Shown here: positions 25,474 to 51,150 of the stretch, in pieces | Layout: every line of letters begins with the position of its first letter | Position numbering within the stretch: the first letter of the stretch is position 1 | Assembly (NCBI GenBank): GCA_023264995.1 | Contig: JAHFUR010000007.1 | Coordinates: 62,001-126,000 of the forward strand | From: Acidimicrobiia bacterium | Lineage (GTDB): Bacteria; Actinomycetota; Acidimicrobiia; Acidimicrobiales; AC-14 | Length of the DNA stretch: 64,000 nucleotides | Reading direction: 5' to 3' | Notes under the pieces: model-generated | Seen by the model: the letters and a program-made list of their open reading frames with translations, nothing else | What the model was told of the DNA's origin: nothing | Database searches by the model: none | Position numbers and translations under genes: made by a program

Positions 25474-27354
25474 CTACTCCAAAGTGCAGCCGCAGGAGTT
25501 GATCTCCCGGGTGATGATGCCCCGCCCGGTGTCCATGTGGGTGGTGCAGGGCATGCAGGGGTCGAAGCTGCGGATGGCCCGCAGCACGTCGATGCCCTTG
25601 ATCTGGTCGTCGGGGACCGACTCCAGGATGGGGGTGTCGACGATGGCCTGCTCGTAGGGGCCGAGGCCACCGAAGGGGTCGGTGGGAGATGCGTTGAGGG
25701 TGGAGGGCGTGTTGATCTGGTAGTTCACGATCTTGCCCTTGTCCATGACCATGTGGTGGGTCAGGTAGCCGCGGCTGGCCTCCCAGAAGCCCACCGCCAC
25801 CCGCTCGTCCATGGGGATCTTGAACGGCGTGTGGACCCGCGTCTCGCCCTGGCGCCAGTACTCGAAGGCCTTGAGCAGGCAGTTCATGCCGATGGTTGCG
25901 GTGAACGCCATGCCGTACGCCCGACCCCGGAGCCGCTCCAGGGCGTTGAGGGTCCGCGGCACCGGCCAGAACAGCTCGGTCTCCGGCAGCTGGTGGCGGG
26001 GCAGCAGCATGCGCAGCCCGTCACCGGTTGATTCGCAGAAGGGGTTCTGGGTGTAGTCGCCCCGCAGGGCGGTGCCCCACAGTTGGCCGTAGGTGCCGGT
26101 CTCGACGACCTGGCGGTCCCAGCGGGGCGCCGTCGACCAGGTGTACTTGTCCTTGAAGGAGGTCCCGGTGGGCTTGGGCAGGGTGGTCTTGTTCCACGCG
26201 TGGTACGGCGAAAGAGGGTTGCCGAGCGCGTCGGCCTGGTAGCGCTGAGGTCCGGTCTTCGTCCAGTCCTCGTAGAAGGAGTGCTCGATGAACTCCTCCA
26301 CCCCCATGTTGATGTCCGTGAGCTTGGTGGTGATGAGCTTGCCCTCGATGATGACGGCGGGGCTGGCCCACCGGGCGTCGCCCCACACGTTCACGTTGGC
26401 GTAGGTGGCGTCGTAGATCTCGGAGTTGTCCCAGATGCCGGTCTGGATGAGGCTGCTCGGCCGGGCACCGACCTGCTCGTAGGCCGGGTTGGCCTCGAGG
26501 AAGAAGTCACACAAGTCGTCCATCACGCGGCAGAGCACCTTGGAGTAGTCGATGATCTGGGCGAGGTGGGAGTAGTACTCGTTGAACGTCGACGTGGTGA
26601 CCGTGGTTGACATGCCGCCCGGCACGATGGTCGAGGGGTGGGGGAACTTCCCGTACATCAGCATGCAGAGGATGCGGCCCACCCTGGTCCACTCCAGCGC
26701 CTCCAGGTAGATCTTGCCCGTGAGCGGGTTGAGCGCGTCCATGAGATCCTTCATGGTCGTGTAGCCGTGGACGTCGCCGTGGGGGGCCAGCGTCTTCTCG
26801 GCCCGCGTCACCAGCTCCGGGTTCGTCACCGAGACCAGCGCGGTGGAGTAGTCGGGGGCGGCGAGGAGGCAGAGGGTGAGGGGGCGGTCGTAGAACATCT
26901 CACCGACCTCGCCCAGGTTGCGGACCTCGACGCCGAGCGGCGGGGGGCAGATCCCGAAGGCCTGCTCCAGGCACAGGGCGCTCACGGTGGCGTGGACGCC
27001 GCCGCACACGCCGCAGGCGCGGGATGAAATGTCGATGGCGTCACGTGGGTCGCGGCCTTCGAGGATGACTTCATAACCCCGGAAGAGCATGGCCCGGGAG
27101 TGGGCATCGACGGCCCGCCGGCTTTCCAGGTCGAGCACGGTGTGCACGGCCAGGGCCCCGGCCACGCGGGTCATGGGGTCGATGTTCCAGTCCCGCAGGC
27201 GGGGCGGGGCGGCCAGTTGTGCCCCGGGGCCGGCCTTGCGGCGCACGTAGCCCCTCGGCTCGGCCACCGTGACGGAGTACGGGTCGGCGAGGCCCTTCTT
27301 GAGCTGGGCCTGACCGGCGGCGTCGAACTCGATGGGCAGGTTCCTGAAACACAT
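25474..27354 (-). CDS. hhyL: [NiFe] hydrogenase large subunit, group 1h (high-affinity, actinobacterial) type
   Basis: A 626-aa hydrogenase large subunit. The L1 motif RACGVCGGVH supplies Cys114 and Cys117 with His121; the L2 motif DPCMPCTTH supplies Cys600 and Cys603 with His606, so all four Ni-Fe ligands are present. A 20-residue tail follows His606, as expected for the peptide removed by the maturation protease. The type resembles the oxygen-tolerant enzymes that oxidise atmospheric H2. The ATG at 27354 has AGGAGG at 8-nt spacing. No small subunit, hyp maturation gene or endopeptidase is within the window, which is unusual because hhyS normally precedes hhyL directly. The group assignment is from memory. 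Confidence 0.85.
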   Translation of the reverse strand: MCFRNLPIEFDAAGQAQLKKGLADPYSVTVAEPRGYVRRKAGPGAQLAAPPRLRDWNIDPMTRVAGALAVHTVLDLESRRAVDAHSRAMLFRGYEVILEGRDPRDAIDISSRACGVCGGVHATVSALCLEQAFGICPPPLGVEVRNLGEVGEMFYDRPLTLCLLAAPDYSTALVSVTNPELVTRAEKTLAPHGDVHGYTTMKDLMDALNPLTGKIYLEALEWTRVGRILCMLMYGKFPHPSTIVPGGMSTTVTTSTFNEYYSHLAQIIDYSKVLCRVMDDLCDFFLEANPAYEQVGARPSSLIQTGIWDNSEIYDATYANVNVWGDARWASPAVIIEGKLITTKLTDINMGVEEFIEHSFYEDWTKTGPQRYQADALGNPLSPYHAWNKTTLPKPTGTSFKDKYTWSTAPRWDRQVVETGTYGQLWGTALRGDYTQNPFCESTGDGLRMLLPRHQLPETELFWPVPRTLNALERLRGRAYGMAFTATIGMNCLLKAFEYWRQGETRVHTPFKIPMDERVAVGFWEASRGYLTHHMVMDKGKIVNYQINTPSTLNASPTDPFGGLGPYEQAIVDTPILESVPDDQIKGIDVLRAIRSFDPCMPCTTHMDTGRGIITREINSCGCTLE

Positions 27355-39763: not shown

Positions 39764-40627
39764 ATGCTGGGGCGGGCTCGCTCGTTGGACTGGAACCGCG
39801 GGCAGAAGGCCCTCCGCCAGGAGGTCGGCCGGGTCGTGGGTTTGCTGCGTTCGGTGCGTAACCCGAGCGCACCCGCGCTTGGCCATTGGAGCGTGGCCGA
39901 GGTGGCCATGCACCTGTCCCAGGCGTGGATGGCTGTGCCGGGCCTAGCCGGGCGGGACGTGTCGGCGATCCGGGAGGTGCTCCCCGAGGTCACCGGGCCC
40001 TCGCTGATCCGTGATATCTGGGATCTCCCGGCCCTGACCAGCCTGGGCGTGCGCAACGATCCCGAGCGGAACTGCTCCGTGCTGGCGGACCGCATCGAGG
40101 AGAGGTCGGGTGCCTACTTCGCGGCGATCGACCAGTCGGCCGCTGCCGACCCGAGGGCGTGGCTGGTGGACGGCAGCGAGGTCGCGTTGTCCACGTTGAC
40201 CTATCACCTGCTCAACGAGACGGTCGTGCACGGTTGGGACATCGCCCACGGCGACGGCCAGCGATGGGAGGTGCGGGCGGACTCGGCCTGCCTGGTGCTC
40301 GAGGGGTTCCTGGTGCCGGTCCTGCGAGCGCTCGGGCCCCGTGATTTCGTCGACCAGACGGTGGCCGCGGGGCTACGGGCCACCTACGAGATCCGGGTAA
40401 AGGGTTGCCGCCGCTACATGTTCGTCTTCGACGACGGGGCGCTGCGCATCGAGGATCCCGCGGGCCAAACGGTCGACTGCAGCATCGACGCAGACCCGGT
40501 GGCGATGCTGCTGGTCACGTGGGGCCGGATGCACCAGGCCGACGCCATCGTCAAGCGCCAGCTGGTGGCCTCGGGACCGAAGGACTATCTCGGGCCACGG
40601 TTCCGGGGGCTCATGCGCAACCCGTGA
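39764..40627 (+). CDS. MDMPI-N/DinB + SCP2-like protein
   Basis: A 287-aa protein with an N-terminal DinB/maleylpyruvate-isomerase-type bundle (HWSVAEVAMHLSQAW; second site HLLNETVVHGWDIAHGDG) and a C-terminal alpha/beta domain of SCP2 type (YEIRVKGCRRYMFVFDDGALRIED, TVDCSIDADPVAMLLVTWGR). The metal-site His residues are present. The gene at 46379-47224 has the same two-domain plan. Possible mycothiol-dependent enzyme; substrate unknown. Confidence 0.8.
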   Translation: MLGRARSLDWNRGQKALRQEVGRVVGLLRSVRNPSAPALGHWSVAEVAMHLSQAWMAVPGLAGRDVSAIREVLPEVTGPSLIRDIWDLPALTSLGVRNDPERNCSVLADRIEERSGAYFAAIDQSAAADPRAWLVDGSEVALSTLTYHLLNETVVHGWDIAHGDGQRWEVRADSACLVLEGFLVPVLRALGPRDFVDQTVAAGLRATYEIRVKGCRRYMFVFDDGALRIEDPAGQTVDCSIDADPVAMLLVTWGRMHQADAIVKRQLVASGPKDYLGPRFRGLMRNP

Positions 40628-40638
40628 CGCTGATGTGG

Positions 40639-41178
40639 TCAGGGCACGGGAATGAGCCGGAGGGCCCGTAGCTTCCGATCGATGCTCGTTGAGCGGGCCA
40701 CGGTTTCGTCGAGCAACGGACCAAGCTCACGGACGGTCTGGTCGGCCTGGGCCAGGAGCGCTGCCGTCCGGCCCACCGAGGCCTCGGCGCCGGCTGTGCC
40801 TGTGCCTGACCTGGCGACGTCGGCGAGCACGCCCGCCAGGGGCGGGTTGGACTTCCCGAGCGACGACGAGAGCAACGCGAGGTCGGCGCTCATGCGGTCG
40901 AGGGCACCGATGCCTCGCCCGATCGACTCAGCCAGTGCGCCGACCTCGGCGCCGGCCCGGTCGACCGCGGTGCTGGTCGGGGCGATGGCGCCGGCGCTGT
41001 CGAGGGCGGCGCCGTTGGTGCGGACCAACGTCTCGATGCCACCCACCCCCCGCGCCAGGGTGGCTGCGGTCCCGCCCAGGTCGGAGGTCATCACCAGGAG
41101 CGCGCTCATGGTGCCAGCGACGGCGACCACCGCAACGAGCCACGAGACGCCGACGGCCCGGCCGGGCTTGGTGGTCAC
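40639..41178 (-). CDS. Membrane-anchored helical protein, fifth of five tandem genes
   Basis: A 179-aa protein with one membrane helix (VGVSWLVAVVAVAGTMSALLV, about 11-31) and then about 145 residues of predicted helix rich in Ala, Ser, Thr, Leu and Gly (LARGVGGIETLVRTNGAALD, DRMSADLALLSSSLGKS, GRTAALLAQADQTVRELGPL) with almost no aromatics. The GTG at 41178 overlaps the previous stop (GTGA). Architecture matches the four genes upstream. No family recognised. Last gene of the cluster; ends 12 bp from the convergent MDMPI gene. Confidence 0.72.
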   Translation of the reverse strand: MTTKPGRAVGVSWLVAVVAVAGTMSALLVMTSDLGGTAATLARGVGGIETLVRTNGAALDSAGAIAPTSTAVDRAGAEVGALAESIGRGIGALDRMSADLALLSSSLGKSNPPLAGVLADVARSGTGTAGAEASVGRTAALLAQADQTVRELGPLLDETVARSTSIDRKLRALRLIPVP

Positions 41179-41777
41179 GAGCCGGCCCCGCGGAGCAGGG
41201 CCTGGAGCGTGCCGAGGGCCGCCGTGTCCGTGCGGATGGCATCGAGGGCGGACGCCAGGGCATGGGCCTTCGGCCCGAGGGCACCGACCGAACTGGTCAT
41301 CGACCGCAGCACGGCCACCAGCCGGGCCAGCGCCTGGTCGAGCGTGCCGAGCCCGGACTGGAGGGTGCCGACGCCTGACGAGCCCTGCCGGGCCTGGCCG
41401 GCGATCCGGTCGACGCCGGCGGGCAGCGTGGCTGCGGCGCGACTGACACCGGCCGTGCGGGTGTCGAGGCTGCCGGCGGCGGTCGCCATGCGCCCGGTGA
41501 GATCTTCGAGCTGGGCCAGCCCCTTGGCCATGGCGTCGAGGCCGGCGGTGCGCTCCCGGAGCGAGGTGGTCTGGTCGACGAGCACCGCACTGTTGCGGTC
41601 GAAGGCGTCGGCCGATGCCGTGAGCCTGCCGACCAGCCGGGCCGGGAGGCCGAGGGGGTCGCTGACCTCGGCCCGCCCCGGGGCGACCCCGAATCCGACG
41701 AACACGCATGCCGACACCACGAGGGCGACGACCGCGGTGGCGAGCGCCCGCTCACGGTTGCCGATGGTGGTCCCCAA
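41175..41777 (-). CDS. Membrane-anchored helical protein, fourth of five tandem genes
   Basis: A 200-aa protein, TTG start with CGGAG 6 nt upstream. The N-terminal membrane helix (ALATAVVALVVSACVFVGFGV, about 11-31) is followed by a long amphipathic helical part (LVGRLTASADAFDRNSAVLV, RERTAGLDAMAKGLAQLEDL, GLGTLDQALARLVAVLRSM) resembling coiled-coil tails of MCE or chemoreceptor proteins. No MCE domain, HAMP or signalling tip is present. It starts 17 bp after the third gene and overlaps the fifth. Confidence 0.72.
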   Translation of the reverse strand: MGTTIGNRERALATAVVALVVSACVFVGFGVAPGRAEVSDPLGLPARLVGRLTASADAFDRNSAVLVDQTTSLRERTAGLDAMAKGLAQLEDLTGRMATAAGSLDTRTAGVSRAAATLPAGVDRIAGQARQGSSGVGTLQSGLGTLDQALARLVAVLRSMTSSVGALGPKAHALASALDAIRTDTAALGTLQALLRGAGS

Positions 41778-41793
41778 TGCCTGCTCCGTTCTC

Positions 41794-42318
41794 TCAGCCG
41801 AGCTCGGGCAGGATGGCGAGCTTCTGGCCCAGCCGGGCCAGCTCGGTGTTGATGGCCCGCACCAGGTCGGCGGTGGTCGTCAGCAGGGAGGCGACGCGGG
41901 CCGCGCCGGCCTCGCCGCCGACGGCCGCATCGCGCAGCTTGGCCACGTCGCCGGCGACTGCCGCGGTGGTCGCCTGAAGGGCCTGGGCGATGCCGAGGTC
42001 GCCGGCGCCACTTGCGGCCAGGGCCCGCACCTGGGACTCGGTCCGGGTGAGGAGGTCGACGTTGGCGTGGGTCGCGTCGCCGAGCTGGCCGAGGACCTGG
42101 CTGAGCGAGTCGAGTGCGGCCTGGGCCCCCTGGGCCGAGGAGAGGTCGACGCCGGCGAAGGGGTCGTTCCCTCGCCCGAGGTCGGCGACGATGCGCTGCG
42201 AGCTGGCCTGCACCACCCGGCCCCGGTGCACGGCGACGAGGGCCAACGCGAAGCAGGCGACAGCGACGACTGCGCAGGCCCGGCCGAGCCATTGCGTGGT
42301 GGGCTGGCTGCCGGTCAC
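41794..42318 (-). CDS. Membrane-anchored helical protein, third of five tandem genes
   Basis: A 174-aa protein with an N-terminal membrane helix (GRACAVVAVACFALALVAV, about 12-30) and an Ala/Leu/Thr-rich helical domain (AQAALDSLSQVLGQLGDATH, NVDLLTRTESQVRALA, ARVASLLTTTADLVRAI). The GTG at 42318 overlaps the stop of the second gene (GTGA). Same build as its neighbours; function unknown. Confidence 0.72.
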   Translation of the reverse strand: MTGSQPTTQWLGRACAVVAVACFALALVAVHRGRVVQASSQRIVADLGRGNDPFAGVDLSSAQGAQAALDSLSQVLGQLGDATHANVDLLTRTESQVRALAASGAGDLGIAQALQATTAAVAGDVAKLRDAAVGGEAGAARVASLLTTTADLVRAINTELARLGQKLAILPELG

Positions 42319-42839
42319 GCCGGCGGCCCGGGATCGAAAACGCGCCGGATACGGCGGGCGTCGGCCAGGACGGACTGGAGGTCGCCGACCATGCCCTGGA
42401 GCACGCCGACGATCGCCCCCTCTTGCGCTGTGAGCCCGGTCGAGGCCGTCGACATGCCGGCCGTCTGGGCCTGGAGCCGCCCGAGCGCGGCACCCACCTG
42501 GCCCAGAGCGGCCTGGCTGGCGTTCGCCCCGCTCCCGGTCCGGCCCACCGTCGCCGTGACCGACGTCAGCGCGGTGTGCAGCTGGTCGAGCAGGGGGGTG
42601 AGCGACGAGGTGGCGGAGAGCGATGCCCGGGCCTGGGCGGTCAGGGCGGTGACGTCGGCGAGCCGGCCGGCCAGGGCCTCGTTGAGGTGGACGATCGAGC
42701 CGGTGGCGGCGAGGGTCCGCTGGTTGGCCGAGGCCTGCGCCGACAGCCGGGTGTCGAGGCGGACGAGGAGGCCGGCGAGGAACAGCAGAGCGGCGAGCGC
42801 GCCGGCGGCCAATGCGATGCGGACGGGACCGGTGGGCAC
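42315..42839 (-). CDS. Membrane-anchored helical protein, second of five tandem genes
   Basis: A 174-aa protein with an N-terminal membrane helix (RIALAAGALAALLFLAGLLV, about 7-26) and a helical extracytoplasmic-type domain (LNEALAGRLADVTALTAQAR, LTPLLDQLHTALTSVTATVG, LQGMVGDLQSVLADARRI). The GTG at 42839 is 2 bp after the first gene's TAA, with GGGAG 9 nt upstream inside that gene, so translation is coupled. Confidence 0.72.
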   Translation of the reverse strand: MPTGPVRIALAAGALAALLFLAGLLVRLDTRLSAQASANQRTLAATGSIVHLNEALAGRLADVTALTAQARASLSATSSLTPLLDQLHTALTSVTATVGRTGSGANASQAALGQVGAALGRLQAQTAGMSTASTGLTAQEGAIVGVLQGMVGDLQSVLADARRIRRVFDPGPPA

Positions 42840-42841
42840 TG

Positions 42842-43414
42842 TTACCCGCTCCCAGCGACGTTGGCGGCGGTGGTGGCCAATGCGTCGCGGGCCAGGCGCA
42901 GGTCGCCGGCGGTTGCCGTCGTGCGCTCGAGGATCGTTGTCAGCTCGGCACGGGCGGCGGCGATCTGCGCGGCCGACCCGGCCATCGGGGCACCGAGCGT
43001 CCTGGTCGCGGCTTCCAGGTCGCCGACGGACGCGGCGAGGCGGGCCACCGCCGGCGCGGACGGGTCAAGGGCGCCGGCCAGGTCGACGCGGACCCGGGCG
43101 ACCGTCGACGACAACCGGCCGTCGACACCGGCGAGGCTGGCCAGGACGGCCGTGAGCGAGCTGCGGGCCCGGTCGAGCGCGGCCAGGTTGGCGAGTGTGG
43201 TCACGTCCAGGGCGGCGACCTGTTCCAGGCTGGCGTTGTACCGGCCAGCGGTGGAGGTCGAGCGGCCGATCCGGCCGGGGACACCGTTCAGGGCGACGAG
43301 CTTGGGCCCGGCGTACGCCCCGAGGCCGGCGAGGACCGAGACCACGACCACCGCACGCACGGCGCGGCTGGCCGGGGCCAGGCCGGCGCCGGCCGGTGCG
43401 GGAACTGCGTGCAT
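42842..43414 (-). CDS. Membrane-anchored helical protein, first of five tandem genes
   Basis: A 190-aa protein without Phe, Trp or Cys. A membrane helix (AVRAVVVVSVLAGLGAYAG, about 18-36) precedes the helical part (YNASLEQVAALDVTTLANLA, SSLTAVLASLAGVDGRLSST, ARAELTTILERTTATAGDLR). GGGGAGGG precedes the ATG at 43414. It lies 92 bp downstream of the LAL regulator on the same strand and opens a gene set with overlaps or short gaps throughout. Confidence 0.72.
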   Translation of the reverse strand: MHAVPAPAGAGLAPASRAVRAVVVVSVLAGLGAYAGPKLVALNGVPGRIGRSTSTAGRYNASLEQVAALDVTTLANLAALDRARSSLTAVLASLAGVDGRLSSTVARVRVDLAGALDPSAPAVARLAASVGDLEAATRTLGAPMAGSAAQIAAARAELTTILERTTATAGDLRLARDALATTAANVAGSG

Positions 43415-43493: not shown

Positions 43494-43509
43494 TGACGGA
43501 TCTCCGTCA
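43494..43509. promoter_or_regulatory. 16-bp palindrome upstream of the five-gene cluster
   Basis: TGACGGA-TC-TCCGTCA has perfect 7-bp arms with only a 2-bp centre, so it is better as a dimer binding site than as a hairpin. Its right end coincides with the LAL regulator's stop codon. Its centre is about 50 bp upstream of the start predicted from the TAGGTT box, a typical place for a LuxR-type activator. Confidence 0.45.
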
Positions 43510-46305
43510 CCTGACGTCGCGTCGCCCCACCTCGGCGGCGAGCTGGGCGCGGGAGGAGACGCCGAGCTTGGCGAAGGCGTGGGACAGGTGGGTCTCCACC
43601 GTGCGGCGGGACACGAACAGCCGCTCTCCGGCCTGGCGGTTGGTCAGGCCCTCGGCGGCCAGCCGGACGACGGCCAGCTCCGACGAGGTGAGGCTGTCCC
43701 AGCCCATGATCGCCTTGGGCGCCGGCCGGGACCGCCGGCGGTGGACCCCCAGCGACCGCAGTGCGGCATCGGTACGGGCCGTCCGGGCGTGGGCGCCGGC
43801 CCGCTCGTGGAGGGCGCGGGCCTCGTCGAGCAAGGCAGTGGCCTCTTCGACCCGTCCCAACTTGGCCAGGGCTGTGCCTGCGTCATCGAGGGTCAGGGCC
43901 AGCTCGCCCGCATACGGGCTGGCCCGGTAGCAGTCGACCGCCTCGGACAGGGCGTCGACGTCGCCTTCCAGCAGGCCCCGGCAGCGGAGGGCCGCGCCGC
44001 GCGCACTGGCGGTGGCGGCCCGCCGGGCGCCGAGCTCGACCTCGGCGGTCACGGCCGCCGCCCGGGCACGATCGCCCGTTTGCAGGGCCAGCCGCACGAC
44101 GTCGGGCGCGAACAGCCGGTACCCGAGGAAGTACCGGAGGGGCGCGGCGACGGTCCACGCGTCGGCGGCGGCGGCCGCGGCCGGGCCGGGGTCGCCGTGG
44201 GCGTCGTGCAAGAGGCCCTGTAGCCAGAGGCCCCACTCCAGCGGCCAGCGGGCCCCGGCAGCCGCCACCGAGTGGACGGCGACGGCCCGGTAGTCCGGGC
44301 TGGTGGCGGCCAGGAACTCCTCGGCCGCGTGCTCGAGCCCGGCCTGGGCCTGGGGGACGTCGCCCCGCTGGAGCGCGACCCACGCGACCACGCCGTGCAG
44401 CATCGACCCGTGCAGGCGGGTGCCGACATCGCCGGCCAGCGACAGTCCCACCTCGCACTCGGCGACGGCGTCGTCCAGTTCGCCCATCGTGGCCCTGCGG
44501 ATGGCCAGCATGCAGTGGTACAGGGGGAGCCAGGCGGTCGTGCCCCGCTCCTCGGCCCGCCGGCGGCCGGCGTCGAGCACGGCCTCGGCGTCGGCCGGCC
44601 GGTCGGCGTCGAGCAGGACCAGGCCCCGGTAGAGGTGGGGTTGGAGGTGCCCTACTCGCGGCTCGGTGCTGCGGGTGGCGACGGCGACGGCGCGCTCGGA
44701 CAGGTCGCAGGCCAGGGCGACGCGGCCTTCGGCGTCGGCCACGACCGCCAGCGTTTGGAGTGTCGCGCACAAGGCGAACTCGTCGCCGGCCGCCTCCGCC
44801 TCGCGCTGCAGCGCTTCAGCCCGGCGACGGGCCTCGTCGGGCTGGCCGAGGAACGGGAGCAGGCTGGCGGCCAGGGCTAGGGCGCCCCTGCGGTCGGCCT
44901 CGGGTGCGCCGGCGAGGGCGGCCGCGGCGTCGAGCTCGTCGACCGCGGGTTCGAGCCACCCCAGGGTCCAGAGCACCTCGGCCAGGGCCCGCCGGAGCGA
45001 GGCTTCCACCGCCGGCGCCGGCCCCCGTGCGATCAGGGCCCGGCTGAGCGCCTCGGCGTCCTTGGCCCGGCCGGTCTGGATGAGCAGCGGTGCCAGCTCG
45101 GCGCCCAGGGCGTCGCCGGCCGGGTCGATCGGGCTGGTCAGGGCGATGGCCCGCTCGAACAGCTTGACGGCTGTCGCCGGCGAGCGCGGCGCGGCCTCCC
45201 TGGCGGCGCGGGCCAGCCAGGCGCCGGCCTCGATGTCGCCGACCGACGCGCCCAGGGAGTAGTGCTCGGCGACGGTCGGCAGCGGGGCGCCGAGCGGGCC
45301 GAGCAGGCGGGCGGCCTGGACGTGCAACCCTCGACGGACGGCCGGCGCCAGCCCGGTGTACAACGCCTCCCTGACCAGCTCGTGGCGGAAGACGAGGTCG
45401 TCGCCCGCGCCCCCGATGACCCCGGCCCGCATGGCTCCCTCGAGCACGCCCAGCAGATCGACAGAGGTGCACGCCATCATTGCCGCCAGGTGGTCGAGCG
45501 GGAACCGCCGGCCCAGCACCGACGCGACCCGGAGCATCTCGCCTGCCCGCTCCGGGAGGTGGCCCACCCGGCGGAGGATGGTGGCCCGCAACGTCGGCGG
45601 GAGCGGCACCGGGCCGGTCAGTCCCGCGTCGGCCACCGCCGACACGATCTCGATGACGTGCAACGGGTTCCCGCCGGCCATACCGAGGTGGGCCGACGCA
45701 CTGGTGCCGCCGATCGCGCCCGCCAGCTCGCGGACCTCCTCGTCGGTGAGCCCGCCGAGGGCGACTCGCGTGGCCCCGCTCAGCGCCAAGTCGTCGAGCA
45801 GGCGGTCGAGCTCGTGGCTATGGGGGAAGCGCCGGAGCGTCAGGACCATCAGCACCGGCTCCGAGCTGGTTGCCCGACCGATCGCCCGGAGGGCGCGGAG
45901 GGTCGACGGGTCGGCCCAGTGGACGTCCTCGAGGACCAGCACGACCGGCCCGCTCGACGCCAGGAGCTCAAGGTGGGACACGATCGACTCGACGACACCG
46001 AACCCGACGTCGGCCGGCGCACCGTCGCCGGGGGACGGCTCGGCGCCGGCGCCGGCATCCAGATGGAGCGCGTCGGCCAGGGCCCGGAACGGGGCGTCAT
46101 GGCTCAGCTCGTCGGCCGCTCCGGACCGGAGCGTGGTGGGGACGCGGAGGTCCTGGATGACCTCGGCCACGAGGCGGCTCTTCCCGATGCCCGCCTCCCC
46201 TTCGACAACGGCAACCCCGCCCTGGCCGGCCTCGACGGCCCGCACCAGGGCGCGGAGGGCCGCCAGCTCCCGGGCCCGCCCGATCAGTGCGGTCGACGTC
46301 GGCAC
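43507..46305 (-). CDS. LuxR-family LAL regulator (ATPase + TPR-like + LuxR HTH)
   Basis: A 932-aa large ATP-binding LuxR-type activator (MalT/LAL class). The N-terminal AAA/STAND ATPase has P-loop GEAGIGKS (36-43) and Walker B VVLVLEDVHWADPSTLRAL. The middle is TPR-like helical repeats. The C-terminus is a LuxR HTH: LTSSELAVVRLAAEGLTNRQ, then ERLFVSRRTVETHLSHAFAKLGVSSRAQLA. Ligand binding is thought to release such proteins for DNA binding. It is the nearest upstream gene of the five-membrane-protein set and is divergent from the MDMPI gene at 46379. Confidence 0.92.
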   Translation of the reverse strand: MPTSTALIGRARELAALRALVRAVEAGQGGVAVVEGEAGIGKSRLVAEVIQDLRVPTTLRSGAADELSHDAPFRALADALHLDAGAGAEPSPGDGAPADVGFGVVESIVSHLELLASSGPVVLVLEDVHWADPSTLRALRAIGRATSSEPVLMVLTLRRFPHSHELDRLLDDLALSGATRVALGGLTDEEVRELAGAIGGTSASAHLGMAGGNPLHVIEIVSAVADAGLTGPVPLPPTLRATILRRVGHLPERAGEMLRVASVLGRRFPLDHLAAMMACTSVDLLGVLEGAMRAGVIGGAGDDLVFRHELVREALYTGLAPAVRRGLHVQAARLLGPLGAPLPTVAEHYSLGASVGDIEAGAWLARAAREAAPRSPATAVKLFERAIALTSPIDPAGDALGAELAPLLIQTGRAKDAEALSRALIARGPAPAVEASLRRALAEVLWTLGWLEPAVDELDAAAALAGAPEADRRGALALAASLLPFLGQPDEARRRAEALQREAEAAGDEFALCATLQTLAVVADAEGRVALACDLSERAVAVATRSTEPRVGHLQPHLYRGLVLLDADRPADAEAVLDAGRRRAEERGTTAWLPLYHCMLAIRRATMGELDDAVAECEVGLSLAGDVGTRLHGSMLHGVVAWVALQRGDVPQAQAGLEHAAEEFLAATSPDYRAVAVHSVAAAGARWPLEWGLWLQGLLHDAHGDPGPAAAAAADAWTVAAPLRYFLGYRLFAPDVVRLALQTGDRARAAAVTAEVELGARRAATASARGAALRCRGLLEGDVDALSEAVDCYRASPYAGELALTLDDAGTALAKLGRVEEATALLDEARALHERAGAHARTARTDAALRSLGVHRRRSRPAPKAIMGWDSLTSSELAVVRLAAEGLTNRQAGERLFVSRRTVETHLSHAFAKLGVSSRAQLAAEVGRRDVR

Positions 46306-46365
46306 ACCGTCATGGTGACAGGCGAAATCCGTTACCTACCGGATGTCCGCGGCGCCGGCCGTGCG

Positions 46366-46371
46366 TAGGTT
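46366..46371 (+). promoter_or_regulatory. -10 box of the MDMPI gene (leaderless)
   Basis: TAGGTT lies 7 nt before the ATG at 46379, placing the transcription start at the start codon. No Shine-Dalgarno is present, and this decides the ATG at 46379 over an open frame from 46343. Confidence 0.45.
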
Positions 46372-46378
46372 CGCCGTC

Positions 46379-47224
46379 ATGAGCTCCAGCACAGACCTGC
46401 GGATCGACCTCGCCGAGGCGAGGGCCGCGCTCGAACGCGTCACGCGGCGGACGGCGGACCTGTTCGGCTCGGTCACCGACCCGGGTCGGGCCGTCCGGCG
46501 GTCGATGTGGACGGTCGGGGACGTCGGCGCCCACCTGGCCGTGGCTCTCGTGGGCTTTACCGAGGCGGCCGGCGGCGACTTCGGCACCGTGGCCCCCCAC
46601 ATCCCGGCGACGGGCGTGTTCGCCGAGCGCCTGTCGGCCGTCACTGCCGCGACGCTCACGATCGAGCCCGACCGTGACCCCCGGCACTTGTCCCGTCTGA
46701 TCGTCGAGCGCGTCGACGGGTTCCTCCACGCGACCGCCGGGCTCTCGGGCGCGGAGCGGATCGCCACCCCGTGGTACGGCGACGGTGCGTCGCTCAGCCT
46801 GGCCACGGCGACGGCCATGCTGCTCGGCGAGCAGGTCATGCACGGCTACGACGTCGCCGGCACGCTGGGCCGGCCGTGGCCCATTTCCGTCGACGACGCC
46901 CGGCTCATGACCCGGGCCATCACGTCGATGATGCCGCTGGCCGCCAACCCGGTGACGACGGCGCGCCTCCACGCCACCTATGGCGTCTCGGTCCGCAACG
47001 GCGGGCCGCGCTTCGTCGTGGCCGTCGACCACGGCACTGTCGTCGTGGAGCCGGCGGACGGGCGGCGCGTCGACTGCCACCTGTCGGCTGACCCGCTGAC
47101 GTTCGCGCTCGTGGCCTACGGGCGTACCGGGCAGTGGGGGCCGATCGCCGCCGGCCGCCTCCGGGCCTGGGGCTGGCAGCCATGGCTGGCCTTCCGCTTC
47201 GTCAACCTGTTCTTCAACCCCTGA
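46379..47224 (+). CDS. MDMPI-N/DinB + SCP2-like protein
   Basis: A 281-aa two-domain protein. The N-terminal bundle has SMWTVGDVGAHLAVALVGFTEAA and a second site AMLLGEQVMHGYDVAGTLGRPW; the C-terminal part is SCP2-like (YGVSVRNGGPRFVVAVDHGTVVVE, RRVDCHLSADPLTFALVAYGRTG). Architecture is shared with 39764-40627. It faces the LAL regulator across 73 bp. Likely a metal-binding enzyme of unknown substrate. Confidence 0.8.
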   Translation: MSSSTDLRIDLAEARAALERVTRRTADLFGSVTDPGRAVRRSMWTVGDVGAHLAVALVGFTEAAGGDFGTVAPHIPATGVFAERLSAVTAATLTIEPDRDPRHLSRLIVERVDGFLHATAGLSGAERIATPWYGDGASLSLATATAMLLGEQVMHGYDVAGTLGRPWPISVDDARLMTRAITSMMPLAANPVTTARLHATYGVSVRNGGPRFVVAVDHGTVVVEPADGRRVDCHLSADPLTFALVAYGRTGQWGPIAAGRLRAWGWQPWLAFRFVNLFFNP

Positions 47225-49192: not shown

Positions 49193-50227
49193 TCAGCGGG
49201 CCATCCGCACCACATAGGTGGAGCGCCCCGTCACCGGCGCGACGCTCGTCGTGCCCCCGCTGGCCGTTCCTGCGCCTAAGAAGACCCCGCGCCACTTGGC
49301 CGTCCCAGACGACGAGTACGTCATGCGCCAGATCGACCAGGCCACGATGAGCGCCGTGTTCGAGGTGAGGTCGGCTTCGTCGAAGACCGGGATGACCGCG
49401 TTGCAGGGGGGTGCCCCGTCGGAGAAGCTGGTGGCGCAACCGCCGGCCGGGAGGATGTCGTCGTAGGTGTAAGCGCCGGCCGGGGCGCTGTTGAGTGCCG
49501 TGGCCCGTGAGCCCAGCCGGACGGGTTGTGACGTCGGGCTGACCGCGCCGGTCCAGAGGGGGCTCAGCCCGCAGGTTCCTGGCAGGGTGCCCTGCACCGC
49601 GATCCCGGCCGGGTTGCCGGCGAGCGCGGTCCCGCCGGCGCCGTAGAGCGCCAGGAGAGTGGCGTCCGGGCGCAGGGCCCGGGTATTCGGGTCGATGAGG
49701 TTGTACCCGCCCGGCAGGAGGGGGTTGCCGCAGAGCATCCACGGTGACCGGGTGCCGAGCAGCGGCTGGAGCGTGGCCGTGGCCGATGTGGTCACCAGGA
49801 TCTGGCGCCGACCGGCCACCGACCCGAACAGCGTCGTACGCCGGATGCCAGCAGTGACCCGCACCCCGGCGGCGTCGGCCCGGCCGCTCCACCCACTGTT
49901 CGGCGAGCACGGGGCGACAACCGTGACGGCCTGGTCGACGACGTCGCAGGCGAACACGTCCACGGCGTTGGCCCCGTTGGTGCTGGCCACGGCCAGTACC
50001 GCGGCTCGCAGGTCGGCGGTTGCGCCGGCGAACCGGGTCTGGCCCACGGCCCGGGCCCCGGCGAGGGCGGCCGCGTCAGTGGCGTTCTGCGTGCGCCGGC
50101 GGTCGGTGTAGGCCTGGCCGCCGTCGATGACGATGGCCACGATGATGAGCATGAACACGAGCATGAGGGAGACGAGCACGAGGGTGGCGCCCGGCTCACC
50201 GGATCGGCGCCTTGCCGGCCCGGTCAC
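49193..50227 (-). CDS. TadG-like Flp pilus/secreted protein
   Basis: A 344-aa TadE/G-like protein. The N-terminal signature is GEPGATLVLVSLMLVFMLIIVAIVIDGGQAYTDRRRTQNATDAAALAGARA in pieces: a positively charged lead, one hydrophobic helix (about 14-36) and the TadG motif RRxxQNAxDAAALAGA. The remaining about 280 residues are extracytoplasmic and contain several Cys. The GTG at 50227 overlaps the previous stop (GTGA), so the three pseudopilin-like genes are coupled. It presumably joins the envelope part of the Tad apparatus. Confidence 0.8.
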   Translation of the reverse strand: MTGPARRRSGEPGATLVLVSLMLVFMLIIVAIVIDGGQAYTDRRRTQNATDAAALAGARAVGQTRFAGATADLRAAVLAVASTNGANAVDVFACDVVDQAVTVVAPCSPNSGWSGRADAAGVRVTAGIRRTTLFGSVAGRRQILVTTSATATLQPLLGTRSPWMLCGNPLLPGGYNLIDPNTRALRPDATLLALYGAGGTALAGNPAGIAVQGTLPGTCGLSPLWTGAVSPTSQPVRLGSRATALNSAPAGAYTYDDILPAGGCATSFSDGAPPCNAVIPVFDEADLTSNTALIVAWSIWRMTYSSSGTAKWRGVFLGAGTASGGTTSVAPVTGRSTYVVRMAR

Positions 50228-51150
50228 GGCACCACGAAGAACGCGTTGCCGATGACGGCGCCGGTTGCCGCGTTGAGGATGGTCAGCGTCTTCGTGCCGC
50301 TGCTCCACTTGTAGTCGTTCCTGCCGACCAGGATCGAGAATGCCGGCCCGGGCCCGGCAGCCGACAGCGTCACTGTCCCGTCGAGGGTCGGCAGGCGCAC
50401 GAGGATGCCGGAGGGACACGGGCCGACGGTGACCACGGAGATGGTGAAGTCGAACGTGAGGTGCCCGCTGGAGGCGAAGAGGGGATTGGTGGCGGGGGTG
50501 ACGGTGGCCGCGCTCGCCGAGCAGCTCAGCACGGTCGTCGTCGTGGTGCTGGTCGACGTGGTGGTGCTGGTCGAGGTGGTGGTGCTGGTGGACGTCGTCG
50601 AACTCGTCGACGTGGTCGTGCTGGTCGGCGTCGTCGTCGTCGTGCTCGTCGAGGTGGTGGTGCTGGTCGACGTGGTCAGCGGCACGATCGGGGCGGCGCC
50701 CGGACGACCGGCGACGACCATGGCCGCGGTGGCCGAGATGTGCTGGCTCTGGCCGATGATCCCCCCCACGAAGGTGATCGAGGACCTGTCCCACGAGACG
50801 GTGAGCTCGACCCTGTCGACCGTGGCCGCCGCAGTCGTGCAGGCGATGACCCCTCCGGCCGATGTGAGGCACCTGATGGCCACCACTGGGGCCTTGCTGT
50901 CGACTCGGGCGGTGGCGGCCGCCTTCACCCGGACGTTGTTGGCGCTCCCGTTGACGTCGGCCTGGTCGAAGTCCACGAGGGCGGCGCGGGCGCCGTCGCG
51001 CGCTGCGGCGACCGCCTCGGTGCGCTCGAAGGCCAGGAGCCCGATGTCGACCAGGCTGAAGACGAAGAGGAAGAGCACGGGTACGACCATCGCCATCTCC
51101 ACCAGGACCGCGCCCCGCTCACCAAGGCGCCGGCCTCCCGGGCCGGTCAC
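50224..51150 (-). CDS. TadE-like pseudopilin with Ser/Thr-rich linker and extra C-terminal domain
   Basis: A 308-aa protein: a TadE start (RRLGERGAVLVEMAMVVPVLFLFVFSLVDIGLLAF, helix about 14-38), a beta-rich domain to about 150, a 48-residue tract of only Ser and Thr with one Pro (159-206), and a further beta-rich domain (about 208-308) with one Cys pair. Ordinary TadE proteins end near 150-200 residues, so the S/T tract plus extra domain is unusual and suggests a long glycosylated spacer displaying a surface module. Overlaps both neighbours by GTGA. Confidence 0.78.
   Translation of the reverse strand: MTGPGGRRLGERGAVLVEMAMVVPVLFLFVFSLVDIGLLAFERTEAVAAARDGARAALVDFDQADVNGSANNVRVKAAATARVDSKAPVVAIRCLTSAGGVIACTTAAATVDRVELTVSWDRSSITFVGGIIGQSQHISATAAMVVAGRPGAAPIVPLTTSTSTTTSTSTTTTTPTSTTTSTSSTTSTSTTTSTSTTTSTSTTTTTVLSCSASAATVTPATNPLFASSGHLTFDFTISVVTVGPCPSGILVRLPTLDGTVTLSAAGPGPAFSILVGRNDYKWSSGTKTLTILNAATGAVIGNAFFVVP
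50533..50676 (-). repeat. Ser/Thr-codon repeat tract
   Basis: About 144 bp of imperfect short repeats (ACC/AGC/ACG codons; on the plus strand GTCGACGTGGTGGTGCTGG-like units) encode the Ser/Thr-only linker of the TadE-like protein. It is coding low complexity, open to in-frame length change. Confidence 0.75.

Follow-up and report, generated by a model that had tools for sequence, protein, structure and literature searches.

We analyzed a 64 kb window of an Acidimicrobiia genome (the whole stretch G000:C81:62001-126000; source assembly of 3.8 Mb in 81 contigs, 97.95% complete). It contains five consecutive open reading frames (ORFs) on the minus strand at 40639-43414, named P1-P5, which form one translationally coupled unit. 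We propose that their products form a co-translated, hetero-oligomeric, membrane-anchored helical stalk or bundle, and we put the probability of this reading at about 0.5. We favor it because the genes are coupled by GTGA overlaps, a heptad is found in all five products, P4 is modeled as helical, and the same architecture is kept as sets in other genomes, in arrays of genes of types A, B and C. These A/B/C arrays are an undescribed gene family and a more testable discovery than P1-P5.

Layout and architecture of P1-P5

GTGA overlaps were found at P2/P3 and at P4/P5, and the gaps were 2 bp between P1 and P2 and 16 bp between P3 and P4. The G+C content at third codon positions (GC3) was 0.88-0.94 in P1-P5, compared with 0.89-0.95 in neighboring genes with recognizable families, while shadow ORFs differed. 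Further, a GA-rich, ribosome-binding-like sequence was present for P1, P2 and P4. Therefore P1-P5 are genuine coding genes.

Each protein has one hydrophobic segment near the N terminus (19-residue mean hydropathy 1.8-2.6). It is followed by an ectodomain of 143-170 residues, rich in Ala, Leu, Gly, Ser and Thr, with 0-1 aromatic residues and no Cys. We observed a hydrophobic heptad period of approximately 3.5 residues in each of the five, which none of 5000 composition-preserving shuffles reached for any protein. Leu, Ile and Val lie at the a and d positions, which hold 54-76% of the aliphatic residues, and elsewhere the residues are mostly Ala, Gly, Ser and Thr. Because the aliphatic residues concentrate at a/d and charged residues at e/g are few (approximately 20%), burial in a multi-helix assembly is favored; the low-charge faces rich in Ala, Gly, Ser and Thr would fit better in a multi-helix bundle than in a two-stranded coil. 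A blind detector for an N-terminal membrane helix with a heptad ectodomain returned exactly P1-P5 in the window, and at the same thresholds it returned no matches in 724 kb of other loci. The AlphaFold2 single-sequence model of P4 contains a membrane helix and then two long helices (residues 2-29, 43-130 and 135-198), with a mean predicted local distance difference test score (pLDDT) of 71.

An earlier note on this DNA had described five tandem genes on one strand, whose products each carry one N-terminal membrane helix and a helical, Ala-rich, aromatic-poor remainder. Its coordinates, gene sizes, overlaps and gaps agreed with ours, and the hydropathy, the aromatic counts and the heptad bear out its description of the proteins.

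Coordinates of P1-P5 and of other genes discussed (positions in the window)
Feature	Position	Strand	Length	Start	Remarks
P1	43414-42842	-	190 aa	ATG	single-pass, heptad ectodomain
P2	42839-42315	-	174 aa	GTG	architecture as P1
P3	42318-41794	-	174 aa	GTG	architecture as P1
P4	41777-41175	-	200 aa	TTG	GGAG-type ribosome-binding sequence; strongest heptad of the five
P5	41178-40639	-	179 aa	GTG	architecture as P1
LuxR-type regulator	43507..46305	-	932 aa		ATPase-like N-terminal part, C-terminal helix-turn-helix; upstream, co-directional, 92 bp before P1
TIGR03083-like gene (maleylpyruvate isomerase family)	39764..40627	+			convergent, 11 bp past P5 stop; below NCBIfam cut-off
[NiFe] hydrogenase large subunit	25477..27063	-			best PDB match 5aa5, HofG; 13.6 kb from P1-P5

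Judging by its position, the LuxR-type gene is a possible regulator of P1-P5. The convergent TIGR03083-like gene marks the end of the unit. A second TIGR03083-like gene lies at 46343-47224; the two copies are approximately 30% alike and bracket the LuxR gene together with P1-P5. A TadE-like pseudopilin gene is located at 50224-51150, in an apparent tad-type locus (approximately 49-57 kb). A promoter scan gave nothing useful, and the single terminator-like site fell within P2.

Relatives of P1-P5 and the A/B/C arrays

We searched for relatives of P1-P5 with single sequences in samples from the same genus and family, from the order (238-298 genomes) and from the phylum (236 genomes). Matches from genus to phylum had E values of 1e-5 to 1e-2, they were at the level of composition and no relative stood out; at the order level scoring was limited to approximately 7-14 of the first-look candidates in each genome, and diverged relatives may have been missed there. 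Two matches, named by eye, were rejected as relatives: an N-acyltransferase/nitrilase-type protein in L004 and a RecN-like protein in L010. A plasmid search with P2 and with P0008 (an array protein introduced below) and a search of viral contigs with P4 and P1 found no relatives. Sequence searches of the PDB with P2 and P4 gave E values of approximately 0.05 or worse. In Pfam, NCBIfam and PHROGs, matches of P1-P5 were sub-threshold, unrelated or generic coiled-coil, those in PHROGs being tape-measure-type coiled-coil noise only. Generic sub-threshold matches shared by P4 and the A and C types were DUF948 (PF06103) and stalks of methyl-accepting chemotaxis proteins. The earlier statement that no described family exists for P1-P5 thus holds in these three libraries. 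The same note had suggested looking for the identical five-gene order in other actinobacteria, and this returned nothing in the samples searched.

The set was absent from two other sampled genomes of the same genus. No array separates the LuxR homologue of G007 from the TIGR03083-like gene, which comes immediately after it, and G001 carries a TIGR03083-like orthologue (89% identical) without an array alongside. Since the searches gave nothing above composition-level matches and the corresponding sites of relatives lack the set, P1-P5 are an orphan set that, among the samples searched, occurs in this genome alone. They were gained here, lost elsewhere, or are evolving very fast.

One weak match of P2 led to the array in L049/L070 and to G272, in which a run of four genes of like architecture is located between hypE and hypB. 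The third protein of this run, P0008, retrieved a clear family within the order. Its genes occur as arrays of 3-6 tandem single-pass rod genes of types A, B and C in 18 of the 298 genomes of the order. The bearers are mostly metagenome-assembled genomes (MAGs) of Acidimicrobiaceae/Acidimicrobiales; they include members of the window's genus (G001, G002) and family (G008), and an array was also found in a Mycobacteriales MAG (L103). A match in G236 was an MCE-type operon and was left out of the array count. Within one array A, B and C are adjacent and mutually homologous, A with C strongly and B more weakly. Their starts and stops overlap, and the proteins have a heptad ectodomain of approximately 150 residues with few aromatics, a mean of 1.6-3.1 Cys per protein, Ile-Asn repeats and a DERGQ-type N terminus. 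An A-type protein was predicted as one continuous helix of 148 residues (pLDDT up to 95). Designed multi-helix coiled coils, e.g. sc-apCC-6, CC-Type2 and CC-Hex3, align with the A/C profile, a match that reflects common heptad chemistry and not ancestry. A/B/C proteins did not reach curated cut-offs in Pfam and NCBIfam, and a limited literature search found no paper on the arrays.

In the window's own genome, contig C47 ends in a fragment of a C-type gene (G000:C47:61253-61561). A/B/C genes are often found at contig ends, also in G001 (C105, C127 and C77), G142:C11 and G174:C6. The repetitive sequence seems to break assemblies, so the arrays may be under-counted. At L111:1594-5432 the A-B-C array is present twice. 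Its two C-type proteins look identical, while those of types A and B have drifted apart; this suggests gene conversion or an assembly effect. The N termini of A- and C-type proteins in L106, L109, L111 and L114, e.g. DERGQATFSLIVV and EEGVVALTLAMTLAFALF, resemble those of TadE and pseudopilins, and pilin-like processing of these proteins is conceivable.

The arrays and [NiFe] hydrogenase clusters

In several lineages the arrays lie in the accessory part of a conserved gene cluster for an atmospheric-type [NiFe] hydrogenase. The recurrent order is [NiFe] large subunit, HycI protease (often two), TPR, c20, biotin-ligase-like gene, sometimes an extracytoplasmic function (ECF) sigma gene, then A, B, C (and A'), sometimes a J-domain gene, c0 and c5. 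Arrays embedded in this supercluster are found at L105:7968-10624 and in L111, L118, L122, L110 and L070, among others. Hydrogenase, maturation or cluster-accessory genes were found near the arrays of G049, G141, G167, G001, G008, G111, G272 (and its near-twin L102) and L104, those in G111 being TPR, c20 and biotin-ligase-like only; several other array loci were cut by contig ends. A large-subunit match was present in 16 of 18 genomes with an array and in 28 of 280 others (Fisher p approximately 4e-13, uncorrected for phylogeny). Counted per family, the large subunit was found in 7/9 with an array versus 16/50 (p = 0.014). A hydrogenase gene alone does not predict a nearby array, because 36 stretches (590 kb) beside large subunits held no array and one lone weak match; many hydrogenase genes have no array within approximately 10 kb. 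Phosphoribulokinase-like genes, named by eye, lie near arrays in L070:238-2331 and L114:1524-2453, the former together with a fructose-bisphosphate aldolase-like gene, and these neighbors hint at clusters for H2-driven carbon fixation.

The large subunit encoded in the window is 73% identical to the subunit that lies beside the A/B/C array in L105. It is one of four paralogues in the genome, and the other three (G000:C52:105497-107083, G000:C52:115754-117340 and G000:C53:27673-29259) are 85-90% identical to it. No small subunit was recognized beside the window copy, and no HycI, TPR, biotin-ligase-like, J-domain, c0 or c5 gene was found in the window. Of the whole genome, 2.8% lies no farther than 15 kb from a gene for a large subunit, which is the chance level for such proximity. 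We regard the window large subunit as a possible but unproven functional partner of P1-P5, a lead rather than a result.

Proposed assembly, alternatives and known systems

In the proposed stalk, the N-terminal helix would anchor each of P1-P5 in the cytoplasmic membrane, and each protein would project a rod of approximately 150 residues outward, up to approximately 200 angstrom if fully extended. The rods would then pack side by side and form a hetero-oligomeric bundle of multiple helices, which may serve as an envelope scaffold or spacer. Several results weigh against this proposal. The P4 model was obtained from a single sequence, its predicted template modeling score (pTM) was 0.38, and a Foldseek search with it gave no match. 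The net charge flanking the membrane helix is ambiguous for P1-P3. Pairwise similarity among P1-P5 reached z values up to 2.1 against heptad-preserving shuffles, and common descent of the five was not shown by this comparison. Finally, P1-P5 have no detectable homologues, and therefore offer neither covariation nor conservation as a set of five.

We considered whether P1-P5 are a version of the A/B/C arrays that is specific to this lineage and has diverged fast; they would then act as a HucM-like stalk or organizer for the 5aa5-type [NiFe] hydrogenase represented by the window large subunit. Like A/B/C, P1-P5 are tandem single-pass membrane proteins with a heptad ectodomain; the arrays sit in the cluster of large subunit, HycI, TPR and HypE/HypB and co-occur with hydrogenase, and only the small share of the genome given above lies as close to a large-subunit gene as P1-P5 do. 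B-type members were weakly retrieved with P1 and with P2 as query, and P1 independently found two of them (L110/L117) over almost its full length. In a comparison with heptad-preserving shuffles, P1 against B lay at 3/1000, P4 against C at 2/1000 and P5 against C at 2/1000, while P2 and P3 were not significant. However, true members that were left out, even from another order, scored 147-267 bits against the hidden Markov model (HMM) of their own type, and P1-P5 scored at most 15, with P1 reaching 12.2 bits against the B model. Moreover, reversed P5 scored 15.0 against C versus 10.2 for P5 itself, and reversed P4 outscored P4 against B. The ectodomains of P1-P5 also lack the Cys of A/B/C proteins, a canonical C-type gene is already present in this genome at the end of C47, and the setting is not that of the arrays: the large subunit is the only member of their neighborhood in the window, the order is inverted, P1-P5 are separated from it by approximately a dozen unrelated genes, and the accessory genes are absent. 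We do not claim membership of P1-P5 in A/B/C by sequence, although a very remote relation is possible, and we consider this explanation unlikely. A bolder version, in which acidimicrobial high-affinity-type [NiFe] hydrogenases would be mounted on an A/B/C hetero-oligomeric stalk and P1-P5 would be a second version of it, either radically diverged or of independent evolutionary origin, seems to us more doubtful.

Alternatively, P1-P5 could be coiled-coil membrane proteins that are independent of one another (sensors, envelope spacers or adhesins), are co-transcribed under the LuxR regulator and do not assemble mutually. High-GC Actinobacteria commonly have low-complexity helical segments rich in Ala, and the lack of shown homology among P1-P5 fits this explanation too. 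Against it, all five share one unusual architecture that the detector found nowhere in the other loci, the genes are translationally coupled, and homologous sets elsewhere are kept as sets; we think it improbable. It is very unlikely that P1-P5 are orphan ORFs without a selected function that arose recently or are decaying. Their absence from the two congeneric genomes and from the LuxR/TIGR03083 sites in G007 and G001 would agree with this, but the five ORFs are intact, their codon bias is native, and they show ribosome-binding sequences as well as a strong heptad. The earlier note had compared the five proteins with the Mce operons of actinobacteria, and a lipid tunnel that lost its MCE rings and retained the helical needle might be imagined, as the Mce1 needle is a heterohexameric helical tube (PMC9882608) and P3 matches the helical half of TIGR00996. 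That match has an E value of 0.26 and touches P3 only, and PF02470 was found neither in P1-P5, as the note had stated, nor anywhere in the nearly complete genome, though the search detects controls. The unit also contains no permease or ATPase gene, and the repeats of the Mce needle are kinked modules unlike 6-helix coiled coils (PMC9882608), whereas P1-P5 have a continuous 3.5 heptad. We therefore reject MCE descent, for which there is hardly any chance. The hetero-oligomeric bundle that the note had put forward is kept as the best reading by analogy, with an architecture inherited set-wise in A/B/C; its specific relationship to MCE is not.

If P1-P5 assemble, they would be a hetero-oligomeric surface stalk without known relatives. 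The A/B/C arrays are of wider importance, as a conserved and undescribed component of hydrogenase clusters in uncultured Actinobacteria. They are a concrete candidate for the membrane tethering of a hydrogenase whose large subunit is nearest to the solved HofG (5aa5). P1-P5 resemble the arrays in their tandem genes, single N-terminal membrane helix, heptad ectodomain of approximately 150 residues and few aromatics, but differ in lacking Cys, Ile-Asn repeats, the DERGQ-type N terminus and the large subunit-HycI-TPR neighborhood.

HucM of the M. smegmatis Huc hydrogenase has 188 aa, and its C-terminal part was modeled as a coiled-coil tube that links the hydrogenase to the membrane (PMC10017518). 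Its size is near that of P1-P5 and it has amphipathic helices, a likeness that we draw from the published description and as analogy only. By this analogy, HucM demonstrates that a hydrogenase can make use of a part of this kind. However, HucM is one protein, a homotetramer and peripherally membrane-associated, whereas P1-P5 are five proteins with N-terminal membrane helices. In the Mce1 needle (MceA-F), several operon-encoded single-pass proteins form one helical tube (PMC9882608). An MCE operon contains YrbE permeases and six MCE proteins, but P1-P5 have no YrbE or MceG alongside and are flanked by the LuxR regulator and the TIGR03083-like gene; they also differ from Mce1 in the missing MCE domain and in having a heptad coil instead of kinked modules. 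DUF948 proteins and chemotaxis stalks share membrane-anchored heptad helices with P1-P5, which in turn have no match to them at curated cut-offs and no signaling or HAMP domain. Thus the principle of a helical membrane stalk is already known, and what is new, in the libraries searched, are the protein families and the gene sets.

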